Source: Fretibacterium sp. OH1220_COT-178
Lineage (GTDB): Bacteria; Synergistota; Synergistia; Synergistales; Aminobacteriaceae
Length of the DNA: 50,072 nucleotides
NCBI RefSeq assembly: GCF_003860125.1
Contig: NZ_RQYL01000023.1
Location: 1-50,072, forward strand
Direction of reading: 5' to 3'
This document shows positions 13,101 through 29,304 of the stretch, piece after piece; position 1 is the first letter of the stretch; each line of letters starts with the position of its first letter. Below the pieces are notes generated by a model. That model saw only the letters and a list, made by a program, of their open reading frames with translations. It did no database searches and was not told the origin of the DNA. The position numbers were made by a program, and so were the translations under genes.

Positions 13101-16100
13101 TGTCTCGGTCTGGCCGGGGATGGGGTTGCCCGAACCGTCCAGCTTCGGGACCGTGACCGTGTCCACGCTCACCGCGCTGACCTGCAGGGTGAAATTCGTG
13201 TTGTCGTTGAGCGGCGGCTTGACCGAGAAATCCGCGTTCTTGTCGAAGCCGTCGATCTTGTACGAGCCGTCGGGCTGGGCCGTCAGGACGGCCCCCTTGT
13301 AGGTCAGCACGGCGCCCGCCGGGACGTTCCGGATCGTGATGTTGAAGGTCTCGTCCGGGTCCGGGCTGATGGGGTTGATCTTCCCCTTCAGGTCGATGTT
13401 CGAGTCCTCGAAGCCCTTCACCTGGGCGGACGCGAAGGTTACGTCGTCCGCCTTGGGAGCGACGATCAGGTTCTTCAGCCACGCCTCGCCGGACAGCTGA
13501 GTATTGGCCTGGCTGTTGTCCCCGGGGGCATCCGCGTCGAAGTCCTTCGTATAGGCCTGAACCTTGATCTGGAAGGCACCGGCCGCGTTCTTCGGCGCCT
13601 CGAACTTGACCGAGTCGAGCTTGTCCATCGGGATGTTCACGCCCGAGCCGCGGTAGGTCCCCGACCCGCCGTCCCACGTGAACTTGGCCCCGACCGCATC
13701 GACGAACTTGCCCGCCTTGGCGTCCCAGATCTGCGGGGTCAGCCGGGCGAAGGTCTGTTCGTCGGCGTCCTGGTTGGCCCAGCCCTGGCTGAAGACGAAT
13801 CCGTCCTGGTTGATGGTGAAGGGCGTGTCCTCCAGGGCCCGGGTCGTGTAGATCTTGCCGCCGCCCATCGTCAGATCGGAGGTGCCGTCCCCGTCGAGGT
13901 CCTGCGTCACCCAGCTGTCTCCGACCTTCTTCAGGGCCTCCGCTCTGGGCGTGACCTTGATCGTGACGTCCACGGCCTGGGTGCCGGTGGCCGGGCCGAA
14001 TCCGGGGGCCGTGTCCGTGGTCGTGACGGTGACCCGGACGACCTCGTCCTTGCTGGAGTGGTTCGGGGCCACTGCGGTGTAGTTTTTGTATTGGGCCATA
14101 TCGACCGTATGCCCCGCATTGACGGTCTGGCCGTTGTGGTCCTTGAGCACCCAGCCCGCGGGGATCGCGTCGATCGTGATGCCGGTGATCGTCTCGCTGC
14201 CGTCGTTGTCCGTCAGGGCGATGTTCGCCAGGAACTTCGCGCCGCTCGTCTCTGCGGTGCGCCCCGCGTCCTCGACCATTTGGGCCGATGCGTTGGGGGC
14301 AACGTCGCCCGCAATGGGCGCCACCTTCAGGTTCAGCGTGACCTCGGCCACCTTGGACTCGGCCCGGTCCTCCGCCTCCGTGACGCCCGCCAAGCCGTGA
14401 TGGGGATCCTGCGTGGTCCCCCCGGGGTTCAGGGTCGAGTCGCCGTCCCGGTCCTGCGCCACGAGCTTCAGCTTGATCCCGTCCAGGTTGCCGCTGACGT
14501 TTCCGGCCGCGCCGAGCTCGATGGCCGGAAGCGCCGTGCCGGTGCTGAGCGACGGGACGGGGATCTTGACCTGCTCCCCGGCTGCCGCAACGTAGTCCAC
14601 ACCGCCGATGCGGACCCGGACGCCGCCGCCCGCCGGAGCCTCGAGGACCAGCCAGCGGTCCTCGCTGCCGTCCAGATCGTCGAACTGGGCGGTCAGGCGA
14701 TCAGTAACGTTGATCAGTCCGTCCTCGTTCTGCTGGCCCAGGTCCGGGTTGGTGACCGTCAGGGACACGTCGTCCGTCACGGCCTTGACCTCGACGTGGG
14801 CGGTCGTCGTACTGGTCGCGCCGGGCACGCCTGGAAGCACGTTTCCGGCGTCGTCCACCTCGTACTCGGTCACCGAGACCTTGATGTCGATGTCCTCGTG
14901 CCGGTGCGCGGGTGGGGTGATCGTCAGGGCCTCGTACTGGGCCTTGGTCATGGCCACGACCCCGGGCGTCGCGCCGGCGCCGGCGACGTGATCGTTCGGG
15001 TCGTCGGTGAGGACGATCTTGAGGACGCCGCCTGCCGGGACCAGTTCGTCCGCGCCGTTGAAGATCTTCGCGCCCGCGGGGATGGCGGAGAGCGTGATGA
15101 CGCCCAGGCGCTCGGGGTTGTCGTGGTTGTCCGCGCCGCCCGTCAGGTCCGTCCTGTCCGTGATGGTCGGAGCCTTCAGCCCCAGCGCCACGGTATTGTC
15201 CTCCAGCACGTCCTTCGACGAGGCCGTGAGCCCCGGTGCGTCGGACACGGGGTTGACGGTGATGTCCAGCGTGCGCGTGTCGGTACCGACGCCGTGGATG
15301 TTTGCCGTGAACGTGACCTGCGGTACGGGGCCGCTGTAATTGGTCTTCGGCTCGAAGGTGTAGGCACCGTCGGACTGGATGGTCAGCGTGCCGATGACCT
15401 CGTTCGCCGCGTTGGTGACGTTGACGGGGGTCCCCACGGCATGCGTCCCCGCCATGCCGTCGATCGTGAAGTCCCGGACCGCCAGCGACTCGCCTTGGTC
15501 CGGGTCCTGAACGAATCCGGCGCCGTCGGTGAGGACGTTTCCGCTCGTTATGTTCGTGTCCTCGTTGGTATTTCTGACGATGTTGCCGCCCAGAGTACCG
15601 GTGTCGTTGATGCCCGTGATGACGATCTTGACCACCTGCGTGTCCGAGGCGTTGTGGGGGTCCGTGGCCTTCACGGTGTAGTCGAGCACCAGCGTCTGAT
15701 CTTTGGGCAGGAACTTGAAGGCCTCGACCTCCGCCGGAAGGTCCGCGTCGCCCGAGTTGAAGCTCCACCGGATCACGTTAGGCACGCTGCTTTGGGTGCC
15801 GTCCAGGCCGCCGGCGACGGTGAACATCTTCAGGAGCTCCGCCTCGGTGAGCCCGGCGGGCAGCGGGCCCGTGTAGGTGCTCTCGCCCGTGTTGACCGAT
15901 ACGCCCGTCTTGGCCACCGCCACGACGTCGTGGGTGTCCACGTCCTCCAGCGAAAGGGTGCCGTCCGCGGTCAAAGGGGCGTTGGTCTCCGTCAGGTTTG
16001 CCCGGTCGCTGTCCCCGGCGTCGACCGTGATGTCCGGCACGTCGTTCGTCCCGTTGATGGTGATGGTCAGCGTAGTGTGCTTCATTGCTCCGCTTGGGTC

Positions 16101-19100
16101 GACGACCGTGTAGGTAAATTTTTCCGTCAGGGTCTCCCCGACGGCCAGGGCCTGGACCTCGGGCTTGCCGTTGTCCAGCGTGTAGGTGTAGTTGCCGTAT
16201 CGGTCGATCTTTATGGTGCCGTGGTCCCCGGCGATGTTGCTTCCGATCGTGGCGGGGGCATCAAGGTCGGTGCCGGTGTCGCCCTTGGCCAGGCCGACGA
16301 CGGTGAGGTCGTCCCCGACCGGCGTGCTGTCGTTCCGCAGCACGTTGTCGGCGGCGACCGGTTTGCTGTCCTCGGTGACGGTGTTGGCGTCGGGGGTGAC
16401 GCCGAACTCGGTGTCGGCGCCGTTGATGGTGATGGTGACGGTGGTGGTGGCGGTGCCGCCCTTGCCGTCCGAGATCGTGTAGGTGAAGGTGTCGGTGAGG
16501 GTGTTGCCGCCGGCCAGGCTCTGCACGTCCGGATTGGTGTTGTCCAGCTTGTAGGTATAGGTTCCGTCGGGGTTGATGACGATGGTGCCGTAGTCGCCGG
16601 ACACCCCGCCGCCGACGTTGCCGCTGGCCGAGGGCTGGTTCCCCGCGACGACGCCGACAACGCTGAGGGGATTGCCCTCCGGGTCGCTGTCGTTGGGGAT
16701 CACGTTGCCGGCCACGACCGTGGTCGCGGCGCTACCGTCCTCGTAGCCGGGCTGGTCCGCGGCGTTCTTCGTCACCGTGTTGACGTCGGGCTGAGCCTCG
16801 GGCGCATCGTTGGTGCCGTTGATGGTGATGGTGACGGTGGTGGTGGCGGTGCCGCCCTTCCCGTCCGAGATCGTGTAGGTGAAGGTGTCGGTGAGGGTGT
16901 CGCCCTCACCCAGCTTCTGCACGTCCGGGTTGCTGTTGTCCGGCGTGTAGGTGTAGCTGCCGTCCGGGTTGATCTTAATGGTACCGTAGTCGCCCGGCAC
17001 GTTCGTCCCCACGTTGCCGGTGGCCGTGCCCGTGTCGCCCTTGGCCACGCCGACGACCGTCAGCGGGTCGTTCTCCGGGTCGCTGTCGGCCCGATCCCCC
17101 GGGCTCTGGGGCACGATGACGTTGCCCGTCACCGCGGGCCCGTCCTCCGTCGCCGTGTTGGTGTCGGGGACCGCCGTGGGCGGGGTGTTCGCCGTGGCGC
17201 CGATGGTGATGGTGACGGTGGTGGTGGCGGTGCCGCCCTTCCCGTCCGAGATGGTGTAGGTGAAGGTGTCGGTCAGGGTGTTCGTGCCGGTCAGCCCCTG
17301 CACGGCCGGGTTGGTGTTGTCCAGCGCGTAGGTGTAAGTGCCGTCGGGGTTGACGACGATGGTGCCGTAGGTGCCCGGCACCCCTGTGCCGACGCCGACG
17401 TCGCCCGTGGGCGGCGTCCCCGGGGTGCCTGCGGCGACGCCGACGACCGTCAGCGGGTCGCCCTCCGGGTCGGTGTCGTTGGGGATCACGTTGCCGGCCA
17501 CGACGGACGTGTTCGGGTTGCCGTCGTCGTGGCCCGACGCGTCGTCCGCGCCCCGCACCGCCAGGTTGACGTCGGGCCGCGCCACGGGCGCGTCGTTGGC
17601 GCCGTTGATGGTGATGGTGACGGTGGTGGTGTCGGTGCCGCCGTGTCCGTCCGAGATGGTGTAGGTGAAGGTGTCGGTGAGGGTTTCGCCGCCGCCCAGG
17701 CCCTGCACGTCCGGGTTGTTCGGGTCCGGTGTGTAGGTGTAGCTGCCGTCGGGATTGATGACGATGGTGCCGTACTCGCCCGGCACGTTCGACCCCACGT
17801 TGCCGGTGGCCGAGGGCTGGTTGCCCGGGACGACGCCCACCACCGTCAGGGTGTCGCCGTCCGGGTCGCTGTCGTTCGGGATGACGTTGCCCGTGGCCGC
17901 GGGCCCGTCCTCCGGCACCGTGTTGGTGTCGGGGTCCGCCGTGGGCGGGGTGTTCGCCGTGGCGCCGATGGTGATGGTGACGGTGGTGGTGGCGGTGCCG
18001 CCCTTCCCGTCCGAGACCGTGTAGGTGAAGGTGTCCGTCAGACGGTCCGTTCCGGTCAGGGCCTGCACGGCCGGGTTGGTGTTGTCCAGCGTGTAGGTGT
18101 AGGTTCCATCGGGGTTGATCTTGATGCTGCCGTAGGCGCCTCCCACACCGCCGCCCACGCCGCCGCTGGCCGAGGGCTGGGTGCCGGGGACGACGCCGAC
18201 CACCGTCAGCGTATCGCCGTCCGGGTCGTTGTCGTTGGGGATCACGTTGCCCGCCACGATCGTCGTTGCGTTGCTGCCGTCGTCATGTCCCGGCGCGTCG
18301 GGCCCGCCGCGCACGACCGTGTTGACGTCGGGCTGCGCCGTGGGGGGCGTGTTGAGGCCGGGCGGAGGCGGGGGCGGGGTCGGCCCGCCGGGGCCTCCGG
18401 GGGTACCGGGGTCGGGCTGTGGCCCGGGCTGAGGACCGGGCTGCGGTTCGGGTCCCGGCTGGGGACCGGGGGCGGGCTGCGGTCCCGGCTGAGGGCCGGG
18501 TTGGGGCCCAGGCTGAGGTCCCGGTTGAGGGCCGGGCTGCGGCCCGGGCGCAGGCGGCAGCGGCTTCACCGGGGGGACGTCGGTGAACTGGTCGCGGGGA
18601 TGGTTCGGCAGGTAGCTGTCCGGACGCCCGGCCTGGGGGTAGTCGATCTCCACCCCGTAGAGCGGGAACTTGACGCGGTCCAGGTCGAACTCGTACGCGA
18701 TGCGCGGGTTCTCGGTGTGCCGGTCCGAGAACCGGAAGATTTCGTTGACGTCGCGGCCCAGGTTCCCCTGGTCGAAGAAACGCATGTCCTGCAGGTAGTC
18801 CACGCGGGGCGCGCGGAACGACCCGAAACCGCCCATGTTGTGGGACGGGGAGGACTCCACGTCCTCCTCGGGCGTCGGCAGCGCGGTGCTCGCCGATGCG
18901 CGCGGGGCCCCCGCATCTATGTCCTCCTCGGGCTGGGGAGCCAGGTTCTCCGGCTGGATGGAGAACGACCGGTACGGCGGGATCCCGAAGACGTCGCCCT
19001 CGGGCCCCTCGAAATAGACGCTTCCGCCCCGGGTGACCAGGACGTCGCCCTTGTGAAGGACGTCCCCCTCCCTGATGGGGACCAGCGAGCCGTTCGGCCG

Positions 19101-19160
19101 GCGGACGAACGCCTCGCCCTCCACCCTCAGTACTTTCACTGCCAAAATCGTCTGTGCCAT
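9273..19160 (-). CDS. Giant VCBS/Ig-like repeat surface adhesin (type I secreted)
   Basis: A 3,295-residue extracellular repeat protein, likely a biofilm or host-cell adhesin. Residues 1-70 resemble the N-terminal retention module of LapA-type adhesins (AVKVLRVEGEAFVRRPNGSL, then REGDVLHKGD). Residues 203-268 are a Pro-Gln-Pro-Gly spacer. Residues 270 to about 1037 are six VCBS/cadherin-like units with NDxDPxGD, DGTYTYTLDN, FTYTISDGKGG and TVTITI motifs. Diverged Ig-like domains run to about 3010, and the last 285 residues are acidic with recurring PDL motifs. ATG at 19160 has AGGAGG 7 bases upstream; a frame running 50 codons further back lacks one. No RTX nonapeptides and no canonical LapG TAAG-type site were seen. 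It is the last gene of the TolC/ABC/HlyD cluster, which should export it. Confidence 0.9.
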   Translation of the reverse strand: MAQTILAVKVLRVEGEAFVRRPNGSLVPIREGDVLHKGDVLVTRGGSVYFEGPEGDVFGIPPYRSFSIQPENLAPQPEEDIDAGAPRASASTALPTPEEDVESSPSHNMGGFGSFRAPRVDYLQDMRFFDQGNLGRDVNEIFRFSDRHTENPRIAYEFDLDRVKFPLYGVEIDYPQAGRPDSYLPNHPRDQFTDVPPVKPLPPAPGPQPGPQPGPQPGPQPGPQPGPQPAPGPQPGPEPQPGPQPGPQPDPGTPGGPGGPTPPPPPPGLNTPPTAQPDVNTVVRGGPDAPGHDDGSNATTIVAGNVIPNDNDPDGDTLTVVGVVPGTQPSASGGVGGGVGGAYGSIKINPDGTYTYTLDNTNPAVQALTGTDRLTDTFTYTVSDGKGGTATTTVTITIGATANTPPTADPDTNTVPEDGPAATGNVIPNDSDPDGDTLTVVGVVPGNQPSATGNVGSNVPGEYGTIVINPDGSYTYTPDPNNPDVQGLGGGETLTDTFTYTISDGHGGTDTTTVTITINGANDAPVARPDVNLAVRGADDASGHDDGNPNTSVVAGNVIPNDTDPEGDPLTVVGVAAGTPGTPPTGDVGVGTGVPGTYGTIVVNPDGTYTYALDNTNPAVQGLTGTNTLTDTFTYTISDGKGGTATTTVTITIGATANTPPTAVPDTNTATEDGPAVTGNVIVPQSPGDRADSDPENDPLTVVGVAKGDTGTATGNVGTNVPGDYGTIKINPDGSYTYTPDNSNPDVQKLGEGDTLTDTFTYTISDGKGGTATTTVTITINGTNDAPEAQPDVNTVTKNAADQPGYEDGSAATTVVAGNVIPNDSDPEGNPLSVVGVVAGNQPSASGNVGGGVSGDYGTIVINPDGTYTYKLDNTNPDVQSLAGGNTLTDTFTYTISDGKGGTATTTVTITINGADTEFGVTPDANTVTEDSKPVAADNVLRNDSTPVGDDLTVVGLAKGDTGTDLDAPATIGSNIAGDHGTIKIDRYGNYTYTLDNGKPEVQALAVGETLTEKFTYTVVDPSGAMKHTTLTITINGTNDVPDITVDAGDSDRANLTETNAPLTADGTLSLEDVDTHDVVAVAKTGVSVNTGESTYTGPLPAGLTEAELLKMFTVAGGLDGTQSSVPNVIRWSFNSGDADLPAEVEAFKFLPKDQTLVLDYTVKATDPHNASDTQVVKIVITGINDTGTLGGNIVRNTNEDTNITSGNVLTDGAGFVQDPDQGESLAVRDFTIDGMAGTHAVGTPVNVTNAANEVIGTLTIQSDGAYTFEPKTNYSGPVPQVTFTANIHGVGTDTRTLDITVNPVSDAPGLTASSKDVLEDNTVALGLKAPTITDRTDLTGGADNHDNPERLGVITLSAIPAGAKIFNGADELVPAGGVLKIVLTDDPNDHVAGAGATPGVVAMTKAQYEALTITPPAHRHEDIDIKVSVTEYEVDDAGNVLPGVPGATSTTTAHVEVKAVTDDVSLTVTNPDLGQQNEDGLINVTDRLTAQFDDLDGSEDRWLVLEAPAGGGVRVRIGGVDYVAAAGEQVKIPVPSLSTGTALPAIELGAAGNVSGNLDGIKLKLVAQDRDGDSTLNPGGTTQDPHHGLAGVTEAEDRAESKVAEVTLNLKVAPIAGDVAPNASAQMVEDAGRTAETSGAKFLANIALTDNDGSETITGITIDAIPAGWVLKDHNGQTVNAGHTVDMAQYKNYTAVAPNHSSKDEVVRVTVTTTDTAPGFGPATGTQAVDVTIKVTPRAEALKKVGDSWVTQDLDGDGTSDLTMGGGKIYTTRALEDTPFTINQDGFVFSQGWANQDADEQTFARLTPQIWDAKAGKFVDAVGAKFTWDGGSGTYRGSGVNIPMDKLDSVKFEAPKNAAGAFQIKVQAYTKDFDADAPGDNSQANTQLSGEAWLKNLIVAPKADDVTFASAQVKGFEDSNIDLKGKINPISPDPDETFNITIRNVPAGAVLTYKGAVLTAQPDGSYKIDGFDKNADFSVKPPLNDNTNFTLQVSAVSVDTVTVPKLDGSGNPIPGQTETITSTNPVATTLDLLVEVKGVADPATLVTAPLATTEGTAEANDGKIALKNAFQTIAPKDADGSETVSLVISGLAEQFDMAGAKFLGGSGEGRRWLVTKEALDDESASVVVKKNYSGTINLKATAVTVENDGNANPNAAEKNVQIEVAATPEAKMNLEASGKEDAPAKLDFTIQPQNDDADETLEAVWIKAADVDSQNITLTLGAAGAALAADADGWYKIQKADLENVFAKGPANKDGDFSFGVKYTVGDAPADGTLGMETQQFDGSYTLKLAPVTDATDSDVTAISQGVGTMTLNGTAGLKITDVADAGPNKGQATFSVDIKVDQQPDPNAGNTADTDGSEQLAYFVVDNVPYGVSIKGGTLVGKGTPEAGDLSGDFPVNRWVVEVPEGTGAFTGGTFSKTLEFTLDNNSGSFDNAFRSYTMRATAFSKDGKAIELAESDAEWKLETAILNQGDVNYEPPTLTAQKLSPTATEDLEIALKELLKVEITNIGNDPAASYVISLKGLDPRIEVEGMTKTTIDGETVWTASAPGDTTVPATQNGMDHLLDSIKLKLPEHWNDNKAGDGLDIQFDASVRGYTVASNPNRPDTYASADVTDIRPAGVTPVTDEATMTLDAPVVDEGAAGGVPITIDLTNEADGASATIVGGKMYVQIQEPAHGTGGTLEYQGTAIAQTNVNGVPGVDNGRYYVVEGVNVGGDQGSGTVSLTYRPAAHASGDFKVTAHVVSQETGAANTVASTVEQTVHVNAVNSGYDLTVGNAAGQEDTRIQIQVGGTGLVDADGSEQVVSATLTNVPDDYKVFVGADAGSAQEAKNVGGGTWALTLTPDGKLPGYIAVQAPQNISETAAAVKLTVYSGEKGQTTVKANEAVFDVKVEAVADGLTINPTQTFGKAGESIPIHLNATVRDTDGSETVTVALKGLGAGVTFNNGSASYDVHTDTYTVSGIAYNKVPELAFTRNAPMSGTVNVTAKTVETSNGDTSAAVSSSFQVDIKPGTAPSGITGRSAFFSALPEGAEGMEPILDADGNPIDPTLDPAAAALGASLLGEANNLPEGTDAEAEAAIDEAAALLPVGADATNTDIPDLPDTADSGTSEPAEGTALPDLADGAADTSAAVGEPAGTADLPAPDPIDPVDTGTEAGVPADNLPDLDDAPLADAADAVSEPGPDLDDVPSVDAAEVAPAETAGEDAPDLGNAPAEDALDLNGVADMGSDAADEGAPELGGLTADDVLDLGGGDLPLPGEDAPEAIPEVESAPEFYAPPVPDAAVTIAQEMDDAIQP
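16050..18353 (-). repeat. Six tandem VCBS units in alternating A/B types
   Basis: Unit ends are marked by a conserved TVTITI coding segment at about 17968, 17605, 17207, 16817, 16424 and 16056. Units 1, 3 and 5 are about 130 residues with an extra GHDDG-type insert after PDVN. Units 2, 4 and 6 are about 121 residues with an EDG-type start. The pattern implies duplication of a two-domain module of about 250-260 residues. Confidence 0.8.
18360..18555 (-). repeat. Low-complexity Pro-Gln-Pro-Gly spacer
   Basis: Tandem short repeats encode GPQP units followed by a run of prolines. They form an extended linker of about 65 residues between the N-terminal module and the first VCBS unit. Copy number may vary between strains. 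Confidence 0.8.
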
Positions 19161-19365
19161 AGAATGACCTCCTGAAATTTTTGAAAACGGGGCGGCAGCC
19201 CCATCGTTTCCCCTTGCGCTTATGGCTTGTGCGGCCTGCGCCCCCGGCTCGTTGCGGGGGTCCCCCGGCCTGTTCGGCTCGGCGGTGCATCCACGATCTA
19301 TATCAAACAAGCCCCTCCAGGATATCGGTCCCGGAGAGGCGGTTCTTTATCGAACAAACCGTCCC
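19161..19365 (-). promoter_or_regulatory. Adaptor-adhesin intergenic region
   Basis: This 205-base gap is the only sizeable one in the secretion operon. It holds the adhesin ribosome site (AGGAGG, 19168-19173), a hairpin CCCCCG 19241-19246 / CGGGGG 19255-19260, and a 14-base near-repeat in direct orientation (TCTATATCAAACAA 19297-19310; TCTTTATCGAACAA 19344-19357). On the minus strand TATAGA within the first copy could be a -10, but no good -35 is seen. A separate adhesin promoter or operator is possible. Confidence 0.4.
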
Positions 19366-20787
19366 TTACCTCTCCCTGAGGGCGCTGGATTTGGCGCGAA
19401 GAAGCGGCCGGAGCAGATAGCTCAGGATCGTCCTCCTGCCCGTCTTGATGTCCACCTGGGCGACCATGCCCGGGAGGATGGGAAGGTCCTTGCCGAAGTC
19501 GCTCTTGCCGATCCGCACGCGGCCCCGGTAGTAGGTGTTTCCCCTCTCGTCCGTGATGGTGTCCGGAGTGATCGAGTCGATCGTTCCGTCGATGCCCCCG
19601 TAGACGGCGTACTCGTAGGCCGTGAACTTCACCACCGCCTCCTGGCCGGGCCGGATGAACGCCCGGTCCTTGGGGGAGAGCTGGGCCTCGACGAACAGGG
19701 TCTGCTCGTCCGGGACGATCTCCGCGACCAATCCGCCGGGCATGATGACGGCCCCCGTCGAGTTGACGGACAGACGCTTCACCGTGCCCGCTATGGGGGA
19801 CCGGACCTCGGAGTGGACGATGCGGTCCGAAAGGGCCCTGTTGCCCTCGGCCAGCCCCTCCATCTCGCCCAGCGTTTCGCTGAGCTGGTTCCTCCACTGC
19901 GCCTGAGAACGAAATTCCAGCTCCTTGAGCTGCCCCTCCCCCTCCTGGATGGAGGCCTTGATGCGGGAGATCTGGGCGCTTGCCTGGCTCCGGTCCGCCC
20001 GGGCCTGGGCCGCGGCCTTCTCGAGGCGCATGACCTCCAGCTTGGGGACGGCGCCGCTCGCGAGAAGGGGCCGCGTTATGTCCAGTTCCTGCGCCGCCAG
20101 GCTGTAGGAGTGGTTGGCGTGGGAGTACCGTGCGCTGGCGTCCGCCAGCTCCTGCTGGCGCTGGCGGTTCTGGTCCCGGATGACGCTCATCCGGGAGGCG
20201 ATCTCCTGACGGCTCGTCTCGTAGAGCTTGCGCTCGCTCGCCACGATATCGGGGATCGCCTGGATCAGGTCCTCGGAGACCGCAAACGGGGTCCCCGAGC
20301 TCAGGGCCTCCAGCCGGGCGGCCCTGACCCGAAGGGTCAGCAGCTTGACCTGCTGCTGGCCGAGCATCGAACCGACCCGCACGGGGTCCAGGCGCAGCAG
20401 AACCGTGCCCTTCTCCACCCGCTCGGCCTCCTTCACCAGAATGGCCTCGACCACCCCGCCGTCCACGGACTGCACGGGCTGGGTCCCCGAAGGGGCCACG
20501 GCCTTCCCGGTGCCGCTCACGACCTCGTCGATGGGGGCCACCCCGGCCCAGACCAGGAGGGCGATCAGGGTCGCCGCTATGGCGTAGATCAGCCCGCGGC
20601 CCTTCGCGGGGTTCTGTTCCTCGAAGGCCCACGCGCTGTCGACCGTCCAGTTGTCGGGGGTCCCGGAGGAGCCGGGGGCGGAAAGACGGGCGGCGAGGTT
20701 CCCCGTGGCCTTCCTGCCGCAGCGCTCCATGCCCTCAACCAGATCTCCGATACGCTCGAATCCCTTCTTGTCCACGGGTTGGAACAC
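19366..20787 (-). CDS. HlyD/LapC-family type I secretion periplasmic adaptor
   Basis: Membrane fusion protein linking the inner-membrane ABC exporter to TolC. 473 residues: a cytoplasmic N-terminus, one membrane segment near residues 66-82 (LIYAIAATLIALLVWAGVAP), a barrel-sandwich half around residues 90-130, long alpha-helical hairpins of about 140-320, and the closing half beginning VRSPIAGTVKRL near 327. The C-terminal beta domain ends GMVAQVDIKTGRRTILSYLLRPL, a typical HlyD ending. Starts with GTG at 20787, immediately after the exporter stop, with a purine-rich site inside the exporter's 3' end, so translation is probably coupled. Substrate is inferred to be the adjacent adhesin. Confidence 0.94.
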   Translation of the reverse strand: MFQPVDKKGFERIGDLVEGMERCGRKATGNLAARLSAPGSSGTPDNWTVDSAWAFEEQNPAKGRGLIYAIAATLIALLVWAGVAPIDEVVSGTGKAVAPSGTQPVQSVDGGVVEAILVKEAERVEKGTVLLRLDPVRVGSMLGQQQVKLLTLRVRAARLEALSSGTPFAVSEDLIQAIPDIVASERKLYETSRQEIASRMSVIRDQNRQRQQELADASARYSHANHSYSLAAQELDITRPLLASGAVPKLEVMRLEKAAAQARADRSQASAQISRIKASIQEGEGQLKELEFRSQAQWRNQLSETLGEMEGLAEGNRALSDRIVHSEVRSPIAGTVKRLSVNSTGAVIMPGGLVAEIVPDEQTLFVEAQLSPKDRAFIRPGQEAVVKFTAYEYAVYGGIDGTIDSITPDTITDERGNTYYRGRVRIGKSDFGKDLPILPGMVAQVDIKTGRRTILSYLLRPLLRAKSSALRER

Positions 20788-20788
20788 G

Positions 20789-22972
20789 TCAGGCCCCCCT
20801 TTCGAGCTTGGGTCTGGACCTGTAAAGTGCGTTCAGGACCTCTCCCTTGGGTCCGTCGGCGACCACCCTTCCCTCGTCGAGGACGATGATCCGGTCCACC
20901 AGCTCCAGCAGGGCCGTGCGGTGGGTGACGAGGAGCAGGGTCCGATCGGCCACGAACGAGGCCAGGTGGGCCCGCACGTGGTCCTCGGTCGCGTTGTCCA
21001 TCGAGGCCGTCGGCTCGTCCAGAAGCAGGATGGGCGCACGCTTCAGCAGTGCCCTGGCGACGGCGATCGTCTGGCGCTGGCCGGAGGAAAGGCATTCCCC
21101 GCGCTCCCCGACCTGCATGTCGAAGCCGCGCGGGTGCAGGTTGGCGAAGCGGTCGACCCCGGCGGCCTCCGCGGCCCTGAGGATCTCGTCGTCGCCGCGC
21201 GGGGGGTTGCCGAACATCAGGTTCTCCTTGAGGGTTCCGAAGAAGAGCGTCACATCCTGGGGCACGGACGCCACGTTGCGCCGGATCTCCGCGGGATCGA
21301 TGGAGCGGATGTCCGCCCCGTCCAGGAGCACGGTGCCCTCCTGAGGCTGGTAGAGCCCCAGGATCAGCTTGCTGACGGTGCTCTTTCCCGATCCGACCCG
21401 GCCGACCAGCGCCACCCGCTCCCCCCGGGCGATCCTGAAGGAGACCCCGGAGAGTGCGGCCCGCTCCTGCCCCGGATAGGTGAAGGTCACCCCCCGAAGC
21501 TCCACGTCGCCCTCCAGATGGGGGCGGGTGAGAAAGGCGGACTCCGACGGGCGCTCCGTCTCCTTCCGCATGATGCCGTCCAGGGCGGCCAGGGAGCGGG
21601 AGGCCGAGTGATACTGCATCATCAGGCCCGCGGCCTTGCCGACGGGCGCGATGCAGCGGGACGAGAGCATGGAGACCGCGATGAGGGCGCCCATGCTCAG
21701 ATTGTTGCTCACCACAAGATAGACTCCCACCACCATGGTGATCACGGATACCGACTGCTGCACCCACTGGATTCCGCTGATGACGGAACCGGAGAGCAGC
21801 CGGAGGCGGGTGTTGGTCAGCTCCAGGAACGAGACCGCGCGCTCCCAGCGCATCTGCACGTGCGATTCGGCCCCCTGGGACTTCACGGTCTCCATCCCCA
21901 CCAGGCTCTCGATGAGCGTGGCGTTCTTCAGGGCGCTGGCGCGGTTCGTCGTCTCCGCGAGGTCGCGCATGGTCCCCTGGATCAGGGCCGCGTGGAGCAG
22001 GATCAGAAGCGAGCCGACCGCCAGAGGAATCGCGAGCGGCCAGGCGATGATCGCGATGACCACAAGGAAGAAGATCGAGAAGGGCAGGTCGACGTAGGCG
22101 AACAGGGTCGCCGAGGAGATGAAGTTGCGCACCGACTCGAAGCCCTGGATGACGTTGGCGAAGGACCCCACCGACGGGGGGCGGTCCGCCGCCCTCAGCG
22201 CCAGGATCTGCTCCATCAGCAGGGCCGAGAGCTTGGCGTTCGTCCTCGCCGCCGCGTTGTCGACCAGCCGGCTCCGCGTCGCGTTCAGCAGAAAATCCGC
22301 GGCGACCATGATGAGCACCCCGATGGCGGTGACCCACAGGGAGTTCATCGCCCGATTTGGGATGATCCGGTTGTAGACGTTCATCGTGAAAAGCGGCATC
22401 GCCAGGGCGAAGATGTTTCCGACCGCCGAGGCGGTGATGACGTCCCGATAGAGGGCGCGGTTCTCGGATATGGAGCTCCAGAACCAATTGGCGCTCCGGT
22501 CCCTCTTGTACGAGGGGGCGCGCTCGTCGAACCGGAACACCGGCTTGACGTAGAAGGCGTACCCGGAGTACCGCGCCTCCAGCTCCTCCAGCGAAAGCGC
22601 CGCCTCGCCCTCCCCCAGCTCGGGAAAGAGCACCCGGGCCGTTCCGGCCCTGGAGTCGAGGGAGAGCAGCACGCAGGCGCTGTTCTCGGAGAGGATCAGA
22701 ATCATGGGCGCCAGCGCCGCGTTCAGCTTCCCCAGGGGGGCGCGGACGGCGCGGGCGACCATCCCGGCCCGAGCTGCGGCACGGTCCAGGCACGAGGGCA
22801 CAAGCACATCGTTCTCCAGCGGGAGCCCCGCGAGCAGCCTGTCGGCCGAGACCGACAGGCCGTGCATCGAGGCCACCCGAAGCAGACAGAAGGCCAGAGG
22901 ACCGCCCCTTTCCGCATCCCGATCGGACTCGAATCGGACGTCCTGTCCCTGCGGCGTCTCGGGGGAGGGCAT
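20789..22972 (-). CDS. Type I secretion ABC permease/ATPase (LapB/HlyB-like)
   Basis: Inner-membrane exporter powering adhesin secretion. The 727-residue protein has an N-terminal C39-peptidase-like domain (about 25-140), six transmembrane helices (about 170-450) and an ABC ATPase with Walker A GRVGSGKST, Q-loop VPQDVTLF, signature LSSGQRQ, Walker B ILLLDEPTAS and switch THR. The C39-like domain lacks the usual catalytic Cys-His context, as in the HlyB/LapB class that exports proteins without cleaving a leader. ATG at 22972 lies 2 bases after the TolC stop. The second gene of the operon. Confidence 0.94.
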   Translation of the reverse strand: MPSPETPQGQDVRFESDRDAERGGPLAFCLLRVASMHGLSVSADRLLAGLPLENDVLVPSCLDRAAARAGMVARAVRAPLGKLNAALAPMILILSENSACVLLSLDSRAGTARVLFPELGEGEAALSLEELEARYSGYAFYVKPVFRFDERAPSYKRDRSANWFWSSISENRALYRDVITASAVGNIFALAMPLFTMNVYNRIIPNRAMNSLWVTAIGVLIMVAADFLLNATRSRLVDNAAARTNAKLSALLMEQILALRAADRPPSVGSFANVIQGFESVRNFISSATLFAYVDLPFSIFFLVVIAIIAWPLAIPLAVGSLLILLHAALIQGTMRDLAETTNRASALKNATLIESLVGMETVKSQGAESHVQMRWERAVSFLELTNTRLRLLSGSVISGIQWVQQSVSVITMVVGVYLVVSNNLSMGALIAVSMLSSRCIAPVGKAAGLMMQYHSASRSLAALDGIMRKETERPSESAFLTRPHLEGDVELRGVTFTYPGQERAALSGVSFRIARGERVALVGRVGSGKSTVSKLILGLYQPQEGTVLLDGADIRSIDPAEIRRNVASVPQDVTLFFGTLKENLMFGNPPRGDDEILRAAEAAGVDRFANLHPRGFDMQVGERGECLSSGQRQTIAVARALLKRAPILLLDEPTASMDNATEDHVRAHLASFVADRTLLLVTHRTALLELVDRIIVLDEGRVVADGPKGEVLNALYRSRPKLERGA

Positions 22973-22974
22973 CG

Positions 22975-24351
22975 CTATTTTTTAGGCGCCTTGTCGGGTT
23001 TTCCCCCGGCCTTTGCCTCGGCGACCTTGAGTCCCAGCTCCTCCGGGGTCGGTACGCCCTCGCGCACGATGTTGTAGGCCGAGATCAGCGCCCCCACCTC
23101 GTGAAGGTAGCTGGCCTTGGCCCCCTCGTAGCCGAAGAGCGCATTGACGTAGGCCCTCTTGGCCTGGAAGGCCTCGTTCTGGGCGTCCAGAAGGTCGAGC
23201 AGGCTGCGCCGGCCCACCGCGAACTGCTGCCGGTAGGCGGCCTCCATGGCCTCGGCGGACTTCTGGTGCTGCTCCAGATGTTCCAGCTGCTTGTAGATGG
23301 TGTCGATGTCGTTGTAGGCGACCAGAAGGGCCTGGGCGACCTCCCGCTCCGTCTCCTTCAGGATCTCCTCGGACTGCTTGTAGAGCTCCACGAAGCGGCG
23401 GATCGTGGCCTCGTCGGTGCCCCCGTTGTAGAGGTTGTAACGGATGACGAGCTCGATCATGGCCTTGTCCTTGCGGCCCTTGGTCCCGTCGGTGTCGTTC
23501 TCGAGGTTCAAGCCGCCGCGGAGGTCGATGCGGGGGCGGAGCTTGGCCTTCTGCTCCTCCAGGGCGAACAGGGTGGAGCGCACGCTCTGGGAGACGCTGT
23601 TCCAGCGCGGGCTCGTCTTCATCCCGAGATTCAGCGCGGTCTCCGGCGTCTCGGGCCGCTTGAGCTCCAGGGCCCCCCGCTCCAGATCCTCGCCCGGCAT
23701 CTCCCCCACGGTGCGGAGGTACTGGGTGGACGCATCGTGAAGGTTGCCCTCCTCGGTGAGCAGGTTGACGCGGGCCAGGGCCAGGCGCCCCTTGACGACC
23801 TCCATGTTGGCGGAGCTCTCGAGTCCGGCGCGGGAACGGGCCTGAACCAGCTTCATGATCTCCTCGTGCCGCTCGAGATTCTGCTGGGCCAGCCGGATCA
23901 TCTCCCGGTAGCGGTTGACGTCGTCATGGCTGCGGAAGGCCAGCAGGGCGATCTTCTCCATCGAGGCCCGAAGGTCGTAGTACTTGGCGTTCTTGGCGGC
24001 CCCGAATTTCTTCACCTGGCTCCGCGTCAGGCCGCCGTCGTAGAGCATCTGGCTGAGCGTGAGGTAGGCGCCCTGGCGGAAGTAGTCGTGGTCGTCCCGG
24101 CCGTCGTAGCCCGAGCCGCCGAGGCGTTCCCAGCCCGCGGAGGCGGAGAGGTCCACCCGGGGACGATAGCCGCCCCGTGCGGCCTCCTGCTCCTCGTCCG
24201 AGGCGCGGAAGGCGTGCCAGGCGGCCTGCACGTCGGGATGGGTAAGGACCGCCTGGTTGACGCTGTCCCTCATGCTCTTGGCCAGAGCGGGCGAAGCCAG
24301 AACCATGGATGCGAAAAGCATGGCGCAGGTACTCTTAAACGTAGCTTTCAA
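22975..24351 (-). CDS. TolC-family outer membrane channel (LapE-like)
   Basis: Outer-membrane and periplasmic channel of the type I secretion machine. The start is assigned to TTG at 24351 because GGAGGG lies just upstream and the resulting 458-residue product begins with a good signal peptide (MLFASMVLASPALA). An in-frame extension to 24504 would bury that signal. The mature part shows the TolC pattern: paired repeats beginning SVNQAVLTHPDVQAAW and long coiled-coil helices with YNDIDTIYKQLEHLEQHQ and GRRSLLDLLDAQNE. First gene of the operon. The stop overlaps the ribosome site of the ABC gene. Confidence 0.93.
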   Translation of the reverse strand: MKATFKSTCAMLFASMVLASPALAKSMRDSVNQAVLTHPDVQAAWHAFRASDEEQEAARGGYRPRVDLSASAGWERLGGSGYDGRDDHDYFRQGAYLTLSQMLYDGGLTRSQVKKFGAAKNAKYYDLRASMEKIALLAFRSHDDVNRYREMIRLAQQNLERHEEIMKLVQARSRAGLESSANMEVVKGRLALARVNLLTEEGNLHDASTQYLRTVGEMPGEDLERGALELKRPETPETALNLGMKTSPRWNSVSQSVRSTLFALEEQKAKLRPRIDLRGGLNLENDTDGTKGRKDKAMIELVIRYNLYNGGTDEATIRRFVELYKQSEEILKETEREVAQALLVAYNDIDTIYKQLEHLEQHQKSAEAMEAAYRQQFAVGRRSLLDLLDAQNEAFQAKRAYVNALFGYEGAKASYLHEVGALISAYNIVREGVPTPEELGLKVAEAKAGGKPDKAPKK

Positions 24352-24922
24352 GGTGTTCCCTCCTGATGGTAGTCCCTGTCGGGGGTCCTGCCGTAGTGCG
24401 AGTACCTCTTCGTAACCCGGATACGGCCCGAAAACAAAAGGCATGCAGCAGCCTCGTAATCCGCATATGTCTTGCCTGGGCCTCCGCGACGGGCAAACAG
24501 CCATGGGCCCCGCAGGGGCCGGCCCGTTCGTCGGCCTTTCACGTGGAACCGCTCTGCAACTGAAAACCGGCTACGCCCCTCCTTTTCATTGGGAATTGTT
24601 TTGAAATCTTAGCGTGTTAGTATAGATTAAGTGGCCTGGACAAAAATCCGTAAATACCACGATAGGGGAGGCGAAGGCAACGCTTTTTCGCCTCCTCGGC
24701 CTTTGACCGGTTCCCTGGGCATTGGCGGCAAGGACCGAGTCCATGCTTCTTCTCTTCTTAATTATCAGTCTTTTTTCGTTTTGTCAATAGGTCCTGAGGC
24801 TTTTCTCGGCTGGGGCTCCGGTTGCGGTCCCCGAAACGTTCCCTTCGTGTCCGGCGGAGGAGCGTGCTATCATGGCAACAGGAAAATAGGGGGCTCCGGC
24901 GGCCCCGGAAGGGAGTATCGAC
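24352..24922. other. Divergent promoter region, no gene
   Basis: This 571-base gap lies between the divergent secretion operon and the deacylase. An AT-rich island at 24590-24650 contains overlapping -10-like elements: TATACT on the minus strand and TATAGA on the plus strand, both within 24619-24626. Their -35 matches are poor. Hairpins occur at 24506-24520 (GGCCCC/GGGGCC) and 24668-24694 (GAGGCGAA/TTCGCCTC). An open frame at 24631-24936 has no ribosome site or protein-like composition and is not called. No c-di-GMP aptamer core was found. Confidence 0.5.
24865..24873 (+). promoter_or_regulatory. Possible extended -10 promoter of the deacylase gene
   Basis: TGCTATCAT reads as an extended -10 (TG, one base, then five of six matches to TATAAT). 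The matching -35 is weak. It would start a transcript about 45 bases before the TTG start. Confidence 0.35.
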
Positions 24923-25420
24923 TTGGTCATGGATGAGAGAGAGCGCGTTCTGGCAAAGCTCGACGAGCTGGGGGTCTCCTACGAACTGGACGTCCACGAG
25001 CCGGTTTACACCATAGACGCCATGGTGGCCCTGGGCCTCGACAAGAAGGGTGAGGTCGTCAAGAACCTTTTTTTGAGGGATGCGAAGGGAAAGCGGCATT
25101 TCCTGGTCGTGTTGCCCGGCGACAGGCAGGGGGACCTGAAGGCGATCCGGGCCCGGCTGGGGAGCACGGCGCTCAGTTTCGGCTCGGAGGAGCGCCTGAT
25201 GCGGTGCCTGAAGCTGAGCAAGGGGGCCGTGTCGCCTTTGGGGGTCCTCAACGACGCGGATCGTGCCGTGGAGGTGGTGTTCGACCGGGCGCTGGCGGGC
25301 GCGCCGCGCCTGGGCGTCCATCCCAACGACAACACCGCCACGGTCTGGATCTCCTACGAGGGGCTCCGAAAGATCGTGGAGCACTGCGGCAATGCGATTC
25401 ACGTCATCGATATGGAGTGA
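24923..25420 (+). CDS. YbaK/ProX-type aminoacyl-tRNA deacylase
   Basis: Trans-editing enzyme that hydrolyses mischarged tRNA, most likely Ala- or Cys-tRNA(Pro). The 165-residue product is a single YbaK domain of normal length. It has the family's central LFLRDAKGKRHFLVVLPGD segment (about 49-67) with the catalytic lysine region, RLGSTALSFGSEERL, GAVSPLGVLND, and the C-terminal GVHPNDNTATVWISYEGL. GGGAG at 24911-24915 suits the TTG at 24923; the ATG two codons later is the alternative. It is monocistronic and faces away from the secretion operon. The exact amino acid specificity is inferred from the ProX (PrdX) resemblance. Confidence 0.9.
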   Translation: MVMDERERVLAKLDELGVSYELDVHEPVYTIDAMVALGLDKKGEVVKNLFLRDAKGKRHFLVVLPGDRQGDLKAIRARLGSTALSFGSEERLMRCLKLSKGAVSPLGVLNDADRAVEVVFDRALAGAPRLGVHPNDNTATVWISYEGLRKIVEHCGNAIHVIDME

Positions 25421-25450
25421 ATCAGATTCTCTTCACTCGGATGTCGGGGA

Positions 25451-25471
25451 AAAAATCAAGACTTGATTTTT
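25451..25471. terminator. AT-rich symmetric hairpin after the deacylase gene
   Basis: AAAAATCAA (25451-25459) pairs with TTGATTTTT (25463-25471) across GAC. The A tract and T tract would let it end transcription in either direction. It could instead be a protein-binding palindrome beside the DnaA boxes. Confidence 0.5.
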
Positions 25472-25485
25472 GGAGCCTCTTGGGT

Positions 25486-25581
25486 TCTTCCACACGGTCC
25501 ACTTATCCACAATATCGCTTGAAATGGGGCGTTCATAGGGAATTTGGGAAATTTGTCCACGGTTTTATCCACTTATCCACA
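25486..25581 (+). promoter_or_regulatory. DnaA-box cluster (candidate oriC or DnaA-bound control region)
   Basis: Two perfect consensus boxes TTATCCACA lie at 25503-25511 and 25573-25581, with near matches TTATCCACT (25565-25573) and TTGTCCACG (25553-25561). A weaker TCTTCCACA sits at 25486. All are in the same orientation. A T-rich run (AGATTTTTTTAAGG, 25585-25598) adjoins. No dnaA, dnaN, gidA or parAB is seen nearby, so whether this is the chromosome origin or a regulatory cluster is open. The surrounding gap (25421-25749) holds no gene. Confidence 0.65.
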
Positions 25582-25640
25582 GGGAGATTTTTTTAAGGTC
25601 ATTCGAGTGGGCAAAGTGGAGGAAAACAACGCACGCACTG

Positions 25641-25646
25641 TATAAT
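25641..25646 (+). promoter_or_regulatory. -10 element of the TamB-like gene
   Basis: A perfect TATAAT lies about 104 bases before the GTG start of the envelope gene and 60 bases after the last DnaA box. No recognisable -35 is present at the proper spacing, so an activator, possibly DnaA, may be involved. Confidence 0.4.
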
Positions 25647-25749
25647 GGTCGGCATCCGACGGCGGGTGCCCTTTTGCGTCCCGGCCCGTTCCGGGGCGTT
25701 TTTATTTCGGGTGGGGGATAGACAGTCCGGAACGAAACGAGGTTGCAGC

Positions 25750-28700
25750 GTGGTTAAAAAAATTCTGTATCGTACGACGCAGTTCCTTCTCGTGCTGACC
25801 GCGGCGGCGGCCGGGCTCGTCTGGCTGCCGACCGGCTCGTGGCTGGTCCTGCCCCTGGCCCGTCACCTCGGGGGATCGGGCGTGCCCTCCCTGAGGCTGG
25901 AGGACGTTCAGGGGTCCCTGTACGGGGGGTACTCCCTGACGGGCGTGGAGGTCGTCTCGGGGGACGCCGTGCTGCTTTCCCTGCACCGGCTTGCCGTGCG
26001 GCCCGATTGGCCGTCGGTCCTGAACGGAGTCCCCTGGCTGGAGTTCCTGGAGGCGGAGGGCCTGAGCGGCGACCTGCAAAGCCTTCAGTCCCTGGCCGAA
26101 CGCTTCGGGGGGGGGGAGTCCTCGTCCGAACCCCTCCGGCTCCTGCCGATGCGCGTCTCGGTTCGGGATGCGACGGTCGCCTCCCCGCAGGGGCCCCTGC
26201 ACCTGGCGTCGCTCGAGCTCTCTGAGCAGGGACACCTGGCTCTGCGCTCGACCCTGGCGGGACTGCCCCTCGACGTCGACGCGCTCGTCGGCTTCTCACC
26301 CCTCTCCGTGGTCTCGGGCGATCTGCGGCTCGGGGAGGGAAAGGGCTCGTTCAAGGGGCGGCTGGCGGCGCCCTTCGACTTTCGCGGGGATCTGGCGGCC
26401 CTGCCGCTGAAATCCGTTCTGCCCTTCGTCCCCGGCGCTCCCCTCCGGGGATCGGGCCGCGTCGACGGCCGTTTCACCCTCACGGGACCGGCGGAGGCGC
26501 CCGAGCTGAGGGGCGTGATTGCGTTGACGCGCGGCGTCGTGATGGACGTGCCCGTGGACCTGCGGGTGCCCTGGAGCTGGTCCGGGGGCGTCTTTGCCGT
26601 TCAGGACGCGAAGCTCCGGAGCCTGTCCGCCGAGATGGCGCTGGCCCTCTCCGCGGACCTGAGCGGGGAGGCGTGGCGCCTGTCCGCGCGGGGCTCCGCG
26701 AAGGACGTCTCCGTCGGGAACATCGGACGCATCCTTGCGCCGCAGGCTCGACTGGCTGGGGAGCGGGGGCGGCTGCGGTTCGACCTCACCGCCGATGCCG
26801 CGGGCACCGTGGCCGGCGAGCTCTCCGTCAGCCTGCCCGAGGTGGCTGCGGCGGGGAAACGGGTGGTCCGGAACCTGAATGCGGACATTCGCCTGGTCCC
26901 CGGGGAGGCGCCCCAGATCGTCTGCGACGGCGAGGTCTTCGGCGGGCGGGTTCTGGGCAAGGGGGAGGTCGTCCGTAAGGACGGAGCCCTGCGTCCGGAG
27001 ATGGTCTTCACGGCTACCGATGTCGACACCGCCCTGATGGCCGCGGCCCTTCCCGCACTGTCGGCCGCCGCCCCCTCCGGAAAGCTGGCCCTGACCGTAC
27101 GGGTCGACGGGGCGCTGGAGGCCTCGAGCACCCTGAGCTCCTCCAAATTGACGGTCGGAGGGGTGACGGTCCAGGACCTGAGGGCCTCGGCACGCTACAT
27201 CGGGGGACAGGCGATCCTGGAGCGGCTGGACGGACGCATCGGAAAGGCCCCGCTGTTCCTCTCGGGGGCTGCGGACGTCCGGCGCTCGACGCTGGCCTTC
27301 GAGGGGAGCGTCCAGGGGCTCGACCCCAGATCCGTGCCGCAGATCGCGACTCGGATCAAGGGGACCTGCGACGTCAGGGCCTTTGTCGGCGGCACGTTTT
27401 CGGACCCGCGCGTGACGGTTCGCGTGAGCGGAAAGGACAACCGGGTGGCGGGGGTCCCCCTGCGCAACCTGGGGCTCTCGGTCACCTACTCCGACGATCG
27501 GATCACCCTGCCCGAGACCGTGCTGCCCCTGCCCGGCGGGACGCTGACCCTTCGGGGGACCGTAGCCCTGCCTGGGGGATCCGAGCCGCGCCTGGACCTG
27601 TCCGGGAAGCTGACGAGCCTGAGCCTCGCCCCCCTGGCCAAGGCCCTCGGGCTGCGACAGCCCCTGAAGGGCGAGGTGCGGGGCTCCTTCAAGGTCTCGG
27701 GGCCTCTCGGGACGGCAGCCGTGTCCGCCTCCCTCCACGGGTCCGGCATCCGGGCCGCCGGCGTCTCCATCCCGAAGTTCGAACTGGATGCACGGGGGAC
27801 CGCCAGGGAGGTTCGGGTCGACCGGCTGTCGGCCACGGTCGGCGAGGGGACCGTCGAGGGGCGGGGGGTCGTCTCCCTTTCGGCCGGGAACCCCATGCAC
27901 AGCAAGACCGACGTCAAGCTGGCCGTGAAGGGGCTGGAGGTCCGTCCGATCCTGAGTCCGTTCGTCCCCGACGTCCCCGTGGGCGGGATCCTCAACGGCT
28001 CCCTGACGCTTCAGGGGTCGCCCGCAAAGCCCTCGGTCACCCTGAGGGTCGATTCGCCGCTGACGATCCGGGAGACGATCGTCGACCGGATGGCCCTGTC
28101 CGTGCAGGGGAGGGGCAAGGACCGATTTGCGCTGCACGCCAGCGGCCAGCTGGGCGACTTTCGCCTTGCGGCCAAGGGGGACGTCCGGCGCGAGGGGAAC
28201 GGCTGGCGCTATGCCATGACGACGGAGCCGCTGGATCTGGACCGGATGCTCTCGGCAAAATCCCCCTCGATGAGGGGCAAGCTCGCCGGCCAGGTGACGG
28301 TGAAGCTGACGGGGTCCACGCACTCGGGCAAGAAGGGGGACCTGCGCCCCGTGGCGATGCACCTGTCCATCCCCAAGCTGTCGGCTTCTGGCCTCACCGT
28401 GACGGACATCTTCCTGCCGCTCCAGGTCGCCGGGGGGAGGGCCCAGCTCACCGGGGGCAGGGCGATGCTCTACAAGGGGGCCGTCCGGGCCAACGCGGAG
28501 GTGTTTCTGGCGGATTCGAAATGGCAGGGGACCGTCAGCGTGCGGGGGCTGGACATGGGGGAGATGGCCCGGCCCTTCCTGCCCCAGGGGGAGCTCGTCG
28601 GCAGCGCGGACGCCAACGTGAGGCTGAAGGGGAACTTCGGGACCCTGATGATGGTGTTCGCCAACGGCGACTTCTCGACGGGCAAGGGGTACCTGCACAA

Positions 28701-29304
28701 GATGAAGGTCATCGACGCCGTGTCCCCCATCAAGCGCATCACCTTCGAGACGATCCGGGGGACGTTCTTCTGGGACGGATCCGACCTGCGTCTGAACCCC
28801 GGCACCCAGGCCACGGCCGGCCCGCGGGACCCGCTCTATCGCTATTTTTCGGTCAGCGGGCCTCTGGGGATCCCCGGCGAAGGGCTGAAGCTGATCTGCA
28901 AGGGGCGCTTCGACGTCCAGATGCTGGACAAGGTCCTGGGGGCGCTGAAGGGCGTGTTTCAGTACTTCACCGGCGGGCTCTCCGGCGGCGGCAGCGGCCT
29001 GATCAAGGGGGCCGTGGGCAAATTGCTGGGCATCGAGAAGCGGGACTTTCAGGATGTCTCCTTCGTGCTGGCGGGCAGCTGGTCGGCGCCTCAGCTGCTG
29101 AACCTCAGGATAGACAAGCCCATCCAGAACTATCTTCCCCTGGACAAGCTGAACAAGACCGAGGAACAGAAAGCGGAGGACAAGAAGTTCCGTCTGAACC
29201 TGAAGATACCGACCGGCCCCGGCGCAAAGGACAGGGAAAACCGGACCGAGGACCAGCTCAAGGAACAGATGCTGGACAACCTGTTCAACATCGGGGTGGA
29301 TTAG
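25750..29304 (+). CDS. AsmA/TamB-like inner-membrane-anchored bridge protein
   Basis: Predicted periplasm-spanning protein of the AsmA/TamB/YhdP group, thought to move phospholipids between membranes or aid outer-membrane assembly. The start is assigned to GTG at 25750 (GAGG 7 bases upstream), giving 1,184 residues; a 35-codon in-frame extension lacks a ribosome site. A membrane anchor follows at about residues 6-28 (YRTTQFLLVLTAAAAGLVWL). The rest is a long run of beta-rich repeats (LSGKLTSLSLAP, VRGSFKVSGPL types) consistent with a hydrophobic groove. The AsmA-like C-terminal region begins near residue 990 (KVIDAVSPIKRITFETIRG). Stand-alone gene. Which AsmA-clan member it matches best is uncertain. 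Confidence 0.8.
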   Translation: MVKKILYRTTQFLLVLTAAAAGLVWLPTGSWLVLPLARHLGGSGVPSLRLEDVQGSLYGGYSLTGVEVVSGDAVLLSLHRLAVRPDWPSVLNGVPWLEFLEAEGLSGDLQSLQSLAERFGGGESSSEPLRLLPMRVSVRDATVASPQGPLHLASLELSEQGHLALRSTLAGLPLDVDALVGFSPLSVVSGDLRLGEGKGSFKGRLAAPFDFRGDLAALPLKSVLPFVPGAPLRGSGRVDGRFTLTGPAEAPELRGVIALTRGVVMDVPVDLRVPWSWSGGVFAVQDAKLRSLSAEMALALSADLSGEAWRLSARGSAKDVSVGNIGRILAPQARLAGERGRLRFDLTADAAGTVAGELSVSLPEVAAAGKRVVRNLNADIRLVPGEAPQIVCDGEVFGGRVLGKGEVVRKDGALRPEMVFTATDVDTALMAAALPALSAAAPSGKLALTVRVDGALEASSTLSSSKLTVGGVTVQDLRASARYIGGQAILERLDGRIGKAPLFLSGAADVRRSTLAFEGSVQGLDPRSVPQIATRIKGTCDVRAFVGGTFSDPRVTVRVSGKDNRVAGVPLRNLGLSVTYSDDRITLPETVLPLPGGTLTLRGTVALPGGSEPRLDLSGKLTSLSLAPLAKALGLRQPLKGEVRGSFKVSGPLGTAAVSASLHGSGIRAAGVSIPKFELDARGTAREVRVDRLSATVGEGTVEGRGVVSLSAGNPMHSKTDVKLAVKGLEVRPILSPFVPDVPVGGILNGSLTLQGSPAKPSVTLRVDSPLTIRETIVDRMALSVQGRGKDRFALHASGQLGDFRLAAKGDVRREGNGWRYAMTTEPLDLDRMLSAKSPSMRGKLAGQVTVKLTGSTHSGKKGDLRPVAMHLSIPKLSASGLTVTDIFLPLQVAGGRAQLTGGRAMLYKGAVRANAEVFLADSKWQGTVSVRGLDMGEMARPFLPQGELVGSADANVRLKGNFGTLMMVFANGDFSTGKGYLHKMKVIDAVSPIKRITFETIRGTFFWDGSDLRLNPGTQATAGPRDPLYRYFSVSGPLGIPGEGLKLICKGRFDVQMLDKVLGALKGVFQYFTGGLSGGGSGLIKGAVGKLLGIEKRDFQDVSFVLAGSWSAPQLLNLRIDKPIQNYLPLDKLNKTEEQKAEDKKFRLNLKIPTGPGAKDRENRTEDQLKEQMLDNLFNIGVD

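Follow-up and report, generated by a model that had tools for sequence, protein, structure and literature searches.

Known DnaA-box loci and the array in comparison

The control of DnaA by chromosomal sites outside oriC has been worked out mainly in Escherichia coli and Bacillus subtilis. The E. coli DARS sites lie farther from oriC, and the DnaA-box clusters (DBCs) of B. subtilis were reported by Okumura et al. in 2012, a study cited in PMC5295017 and PMC13220808. At E. coli datA, function depends on the spacing between the boxes and an IHF site (PMC4585315, PMC10950094), and the DnaA boxes of the E. coli chromosome gather near oriC, a pattern that favours titration (PMC12371093). In B. subtilis, deletion of all six DnaA-box clusters leads to early initiation (PMC5295017, PMC13220808). 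The origin of B. subtilis is itself bipartite and bears a DnaA-trio (PMC13220808).

We analyzed a 50,072-nt stretch of DNA from Fretibacterium sp. OH1220_COT-178 (the window, contig C23), which contains five DnaA-box-like 9-mers, each in + orientation, in a span of 96 bp (25486–25581). We consider this array to be, somewhat more probably than otherwise, a cis-acting, non-coding DnaA-binding control locus outside oriC, similar to datA and DARS or to the DBCs, but with a geometry of its own.

Both datA and the array are non-coding, single-copy, origin-proximal clusters of several DnaA boxes; datA was first described with five boxes, and spacing matters to it (PMC4585315, PMC10950094), while for the array we infer functional spacing from the conservation of its spacing. 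datA needs an IHF site between its boxes; in the 41-bp spacer of the array no conserved protein-site sequence is visible, and no sequence homology between the array and datA was found. DARS1 and DARS2 of E. coli are, like the array, non-coding DnaA-box elements with conserved distances between the boxes and a core of three boxes (PMC4585315). IHF and Fis take part at DARS2, however, and the likeness of the array to DARS lies, as far as shown, in the general plan and not in a matched box arrangement. The B. subtilis clusters resemble the array in being DnaA-box clusters outside oriC, but they are six in number and redundant, whereas the array is a single one with a strictly kept geometry. With a bipartite oriC (dnaA-flanking boxes, a DUE and a DnaA-trio; PMC13220808), the array has in common that its DnaA boxes lie in intergenic DNA, but it lacks both a DnaA-trio-like tract and a skew switch.

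Geometry, context and conservation of the array

The array and its surroundings contain the following features:

24923..25420, + strand, upstream gene, YbaK-type aminoacyl-tRNA editing domain protein (PF04073)
25451..25471, no strand assigned, palindrome AAAAATCAAG-A-CTTGATTTTT with 10-bp arms
25486..25494, + strand, box A, TCTTCCACA, 2 mismatches
25503..25511, + strand, box B, TTATCCACA, 0 mismatches
25512..25552, + strand, B-C spacer, 41 bp, kept in length and free in sequence
25553..25561, + strand, box C, TTGTCCACG, 2 mismatches
25565..25573, + strand, box D, TTATCCACT, 1 mismatch, 12 bp past box C
25573..25581, + strand, box E, TTATCCACA, 0 mismatches, 8 bp past box D
25588..25594, + strand, T run 3′ of box E, not conserved in relatives
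25641..25646, + strand, TATAAT, possible −10 element about 60 bp past box E
25753..29304, + strand, downstream gene, AsmA/TamB-like protein (PF05170, PF04357)

The geometry is summarized as A-17/19-B-50-C-12-D-8-E in one orientation, with a pitch from box A to box B of 17 or 19 bp in relatives; a TCCAC precedes box B at an 8-bp pitch (TCCACTTATCCACA). The first-pass annotation had called such a cluster of perfect and near-matching boxes unlikely by chance, and we confirmed both the cluster, with two perfect boxes and three near matches, and its improbability. First-order Markov simulations produced three same-strand sites with at most one mismatch within 96 bp in none of 300 runs for the window and none of 20,000 for the intergenic region, and a looser triple pattern had the array as its single match in a whole-genome scan (control matches, 0). 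The window contains six sites with at most one mismatch, three of them in the array. The genome (2.86 Mb in 105 contigs, with the array on C23 and dnaA on C25) contains eight perfect boxes: two in the array, an inverted pair before dnaA on C25 and four isolated ones. A chance cluster is rejected on the basis of the box counts, the simulations, the whole-genome triple scan and the conservation described below.

The reported stretch has a GC content of 42.5%, compared to 67.7% in the window. Of the AT elements in the same annotation, the T run was found; the palindrome that we find lies just outside the interval assigned to the element. Nor is the array located between divergent transcription units, as had been described, because the genes on its two sides both read in the + direction and the nearest − strand gene is a TolC-type gene at 22975–24504. 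The − strand region from 9273 to 24504 encodes a repetitive, probably secreted, adhesin-like protein of 3345 aa together with type I secretion genes (HlyD, an ABC transporter and an outer-membrane efflux protein). On the other side of the array, the TATAAT is followed directly by two terminator-like hairpins (25651–25699) 5′ of the AsmA/TamB gene, and the 25641–25699 region may act as an attenuator or encode a short leader RNA; an Rfam scan of 25300–25800, which covers this region, gave no match near a gathering score.

We found that the C-D-E core (pitches of 12 and 8 bp; YYCACNNNNNNNTCCACWTRTCCACA) has a single match in each of 37 genomes among the 183 of the order, compared to 0 matches for a reversed-pattern control. 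The search for the core pattern did not demand box B, and yet box B, with at most one mismatch, was present in 25 aligned copies of family f1 (Synergistaceae-type). The B-C pitch is 50 bp in 19 of these copies, 49 bp in three, 51 bp in two and 42 bp in one, so that all but one of the 25 have box B at 50 ± 1 bp before box C. Across the 19 copies with a 50-bp pitch, the mean frequency of the top letter is 0.94 in the boxes, 0.48 in the spacer and 0.46–0.49 in the flanks. A search of 84,980 species genomes for the long form, with box B included, returned 12 genomes, every one of them from Synergistota.

In families without a match to the strict pattern, the DNA behind the staphylococcal-nuclease-like (SNase) gene carries an array, clear or degenerate, in f3, f6, f8 and f10, which brings the array to 8 of 10 families once looser forms are counted. 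Reading the same locus in f4 and f9 revealed no array behind the SNase gene, and the array is therefore dispensable in the order, a point against a control locus. Near the palindrome, a GACTTG(A/C)TTTTT block is common to part of the family, and in G112 this shared block (GACTTGATTTTTT) accompanies the array in a different gene context. The conservation of the boxes in relatives, on which the annotation had made its proposal depend, lends strong support to its core idea of a putative functional DnaA-box cluster.

The usual gene order in relatives is the SNase-like gene, the array and the AsmA/TamB-like gene, with the SNase-like gene holding the place of the YbaK-type gene in most of them. The gene directly 3′ of the array encodes AsmA/TamB in 27 of 37 arrays, an aldehyde dehydrogenase in four (two confirmed by Pfam) and LarC, on the opposite strand, in two. 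Elsewhere, the array is followed by a Sel1 protein gene (G007), by LptA-LptB with TopA on its other side (G112), by a small ORF and then an AAA ATPase gene (G014), or by DegT on the opposite strand with no + strand gene after the array (G011). A tRNA adjoining the G014 array, hinted at by a strong promoter-like sequence, was not found. Because the array stays while its downstream gene varies, it behaves as an independent unit rather than as a component of a single promoter.

Relatives that are poor in DnaA were also compared. In G036's genus (43 genomes, same family), 40 of 43 genomes, and 27 of the 30 of good quality, have no match to DnaA domain IV, and three of the most complete have no match to the DnaA AAA+ domain; a loss of dnaA in most of this genus, with genomes of 1.5–2.8 Mb, is possible. 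The core pattern occurs in 0 of the 43 genomes, and the orthologous AsmA/TamB upstream regions that were checked have no boxes directly upstream. The absence of the array from a DnaA-poor genus fits a DnaA-related role, but the case for a link between the losses of array and DnaA, though consistent, is weak: its main example is one clade and amounts in essence to a single evolutionary event, and G105, of the same genus, has DnaA and no array. Five array-bearing drafts (77–94% complete) have no DnaA_C match, probably due to incompleteness. In family f7, three genomes of 1.2–1.3 Mb (G042, G051 and G061) have neither a DnaA_C match nor the array, and their larger congeners G059 and G062 have both.

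Position of the origin and alternative roles

The dnaA gene is located at about 36.2 kb on C25, where GC skew is mostly negative before dnaA and positive after it and the cumulative minimum falls in the 35–40 kb bin. Perfect boxes lie 5′ of dnaA at 35936 (+) and 35963 (−). The gap between dnaA and dnaN, whose identity was confirmed by Pfam, contains boxes at 37544 and 37663 and two weaker ones, followed by ACTACTGCAACTACT, which resembles a DnaA-trio. Judged by these features, C25:37544–37712 is the likely oriC of the window's genome. The complete relative G005 has the same dnaA-dnaN plan in a clearer form, with TTATCCACAGACCTTATTACTATTATTATTACT before dnaN, and in both genomes the layout matches the bipartite origin of B. 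subtilis (PMC13220808). The skew minimum of G005 is at dnaA, with the array 72 kb off, in an arm where skew is mostly negative; in the complete relative G033 the bin with dnaA also holds the minimum, with the array 99 kb into the positive arm. Skew is flat for about 100 kb around dnaA in G057 and noisy in the GC-heterogeneous G006, and these two genomes therefore do not place the origin sharply.

Wherever the array and dnaA share one contig (nine genomes), they are separated by 11–170 kb (11 kb in G045 and G054, 42 kb in G067, 72 kb in G005, about 83 kb in G049 and G057, 91 kb in G023, 99 kb in G033 and 170 kb in G006). Synteny of one ancestral locus may partly explain this proximity to the origin.

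A second recurring cluster, TTnnnCACATTATCCACAnnnnTTATCCACA, lies away from dnaA in several Synergistaceae genomes (L050, L051 and L052, in G035, G012 and G026, respectively), and clusters of the same type are found at L053, L055 and L056. Its tandem 9-bp boxes resemble those beside the DnaA-trio tract in G005.

The first-pass annotation had offered an oriC apart from dnaA as one explanation, to be recognized by a skew minimum at the array. In its favour, the array is the densest DnaA-box cluster of the genome and adjoins AT-rich DNA. However, to either side of the array skew on C23 stays near zero or above it, with no switch, the array has neither a skew minimum nor a trio-like repeat after box E, and it is the dnaA locus on C25, with its flanking boxes and trio-like sequence, that coincides with the switch, in agreement with G005 and G033. 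We therefore reject the array as oriC and give that explanation almost no weight. A cluster of DnaA boxes beside AT-rich DNA is insufficient for calling an origin. The same proximity to the origin, DnaA boxes and AT-rich DNA could belong to an origin that still binds DnaA, either the relic of an ancestral one or a secondary or conditional one. This is very improbable: in a relic, the 50-bp pitch would not have stayed fixed while the spacer sequence is not conserved, the aligned relatives have no DnaA-trio-like tract after box E, and G005 and G033 have no skew switch at the array. An origin-near chromosome-organizing element that uses DnaA as an anchor, in segregation or the handling of sister origins and not in initiation control, would suit the single copy, origin-proximal position and directional geometry of the array, and we consider it improbable, if slightly less so.

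The main rival to a control locus is the other explanation in the annotation, a DnaA-controlled promoter at which bound DnaA represses or activates AsmA/TamB (envelope lipid transport), with expression tracking the replication cycle. DnaA is a transcription factor in other bacteria (PMC4447404), the TATAAT at 25641 and the hairpins that follow suggest a regulated leader, and AsmA/TamB follows the array in most genomes; the 27 of 37 arrays that directly precede it count against a control locus to the extent that a promoter role explains them equally well. This part of the proposal loses weight because the array is retained where another gene lies downstream or where that gene is on the opposite strand. 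In 10 of the 37 arrays there are at least six other arrangements, among them an aldehyde dehydrogenase or opposite-strand LarC between the array and tamB in f5 and f7, the lptA-lptB, Sel1 and small-ORF neighbours, and the case with no + strand gene downstream. Moreover, a sigma-70 promoter scan near the array returned no full match at threshold. On balance, a promoter role seems rather unlikely, while being the strongest of the alternatives.

A candidate DnaA control locus in Synergistota

For the DnaA control locus that we favour, DnaA would bind both halves of the array, A-B and C-D-E, and the spacer, fixed in length and free in sequence, would keep the two halves in register, probably with looping or bending. 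The resulting complex would act on the cell's DnaA pool by sequestration, ATP hydrolysis or nucleotide exchange, and the duplication of the array soon after initiation would lower or reset the capacity for initiation. An ordered complex is likelier than simple titration, because a pure sink needs no fixed pitch. The geometry of the array, its single copy, its place relative to dnaA and its conservation are read directly from the DNA, from which sequestration, hydrolysis of DnaA-ATP as at datA and release of ADP as at the DARS sites would be indistinguishable.

Among the papers of the library searched, none describes an origin or a comparable element for Synergistota. The kind of element is already known; its present arrangement and lineage are, as far as checked, apparently undescribed. 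Tentatively, and with more doubt than for a control locus in general, the array may be an undescribed Synergistota-specific element in which two box groups at a fixed 50-bp pitch form a defined complex able to inactivate or reactivate DnaA, and thus a counterpart of datA and DARS that arose independently. If true, a phylum without known initiation control would have its own datA/DARS counterpart, lost in a genus that is mostly without DnaA. The conserved spacing is a structural prediction that is open to direct test. That a single-copy array keeps its geometry throughout much of an order in a further phylum suggests that DnaA is controlled in this way more widely.
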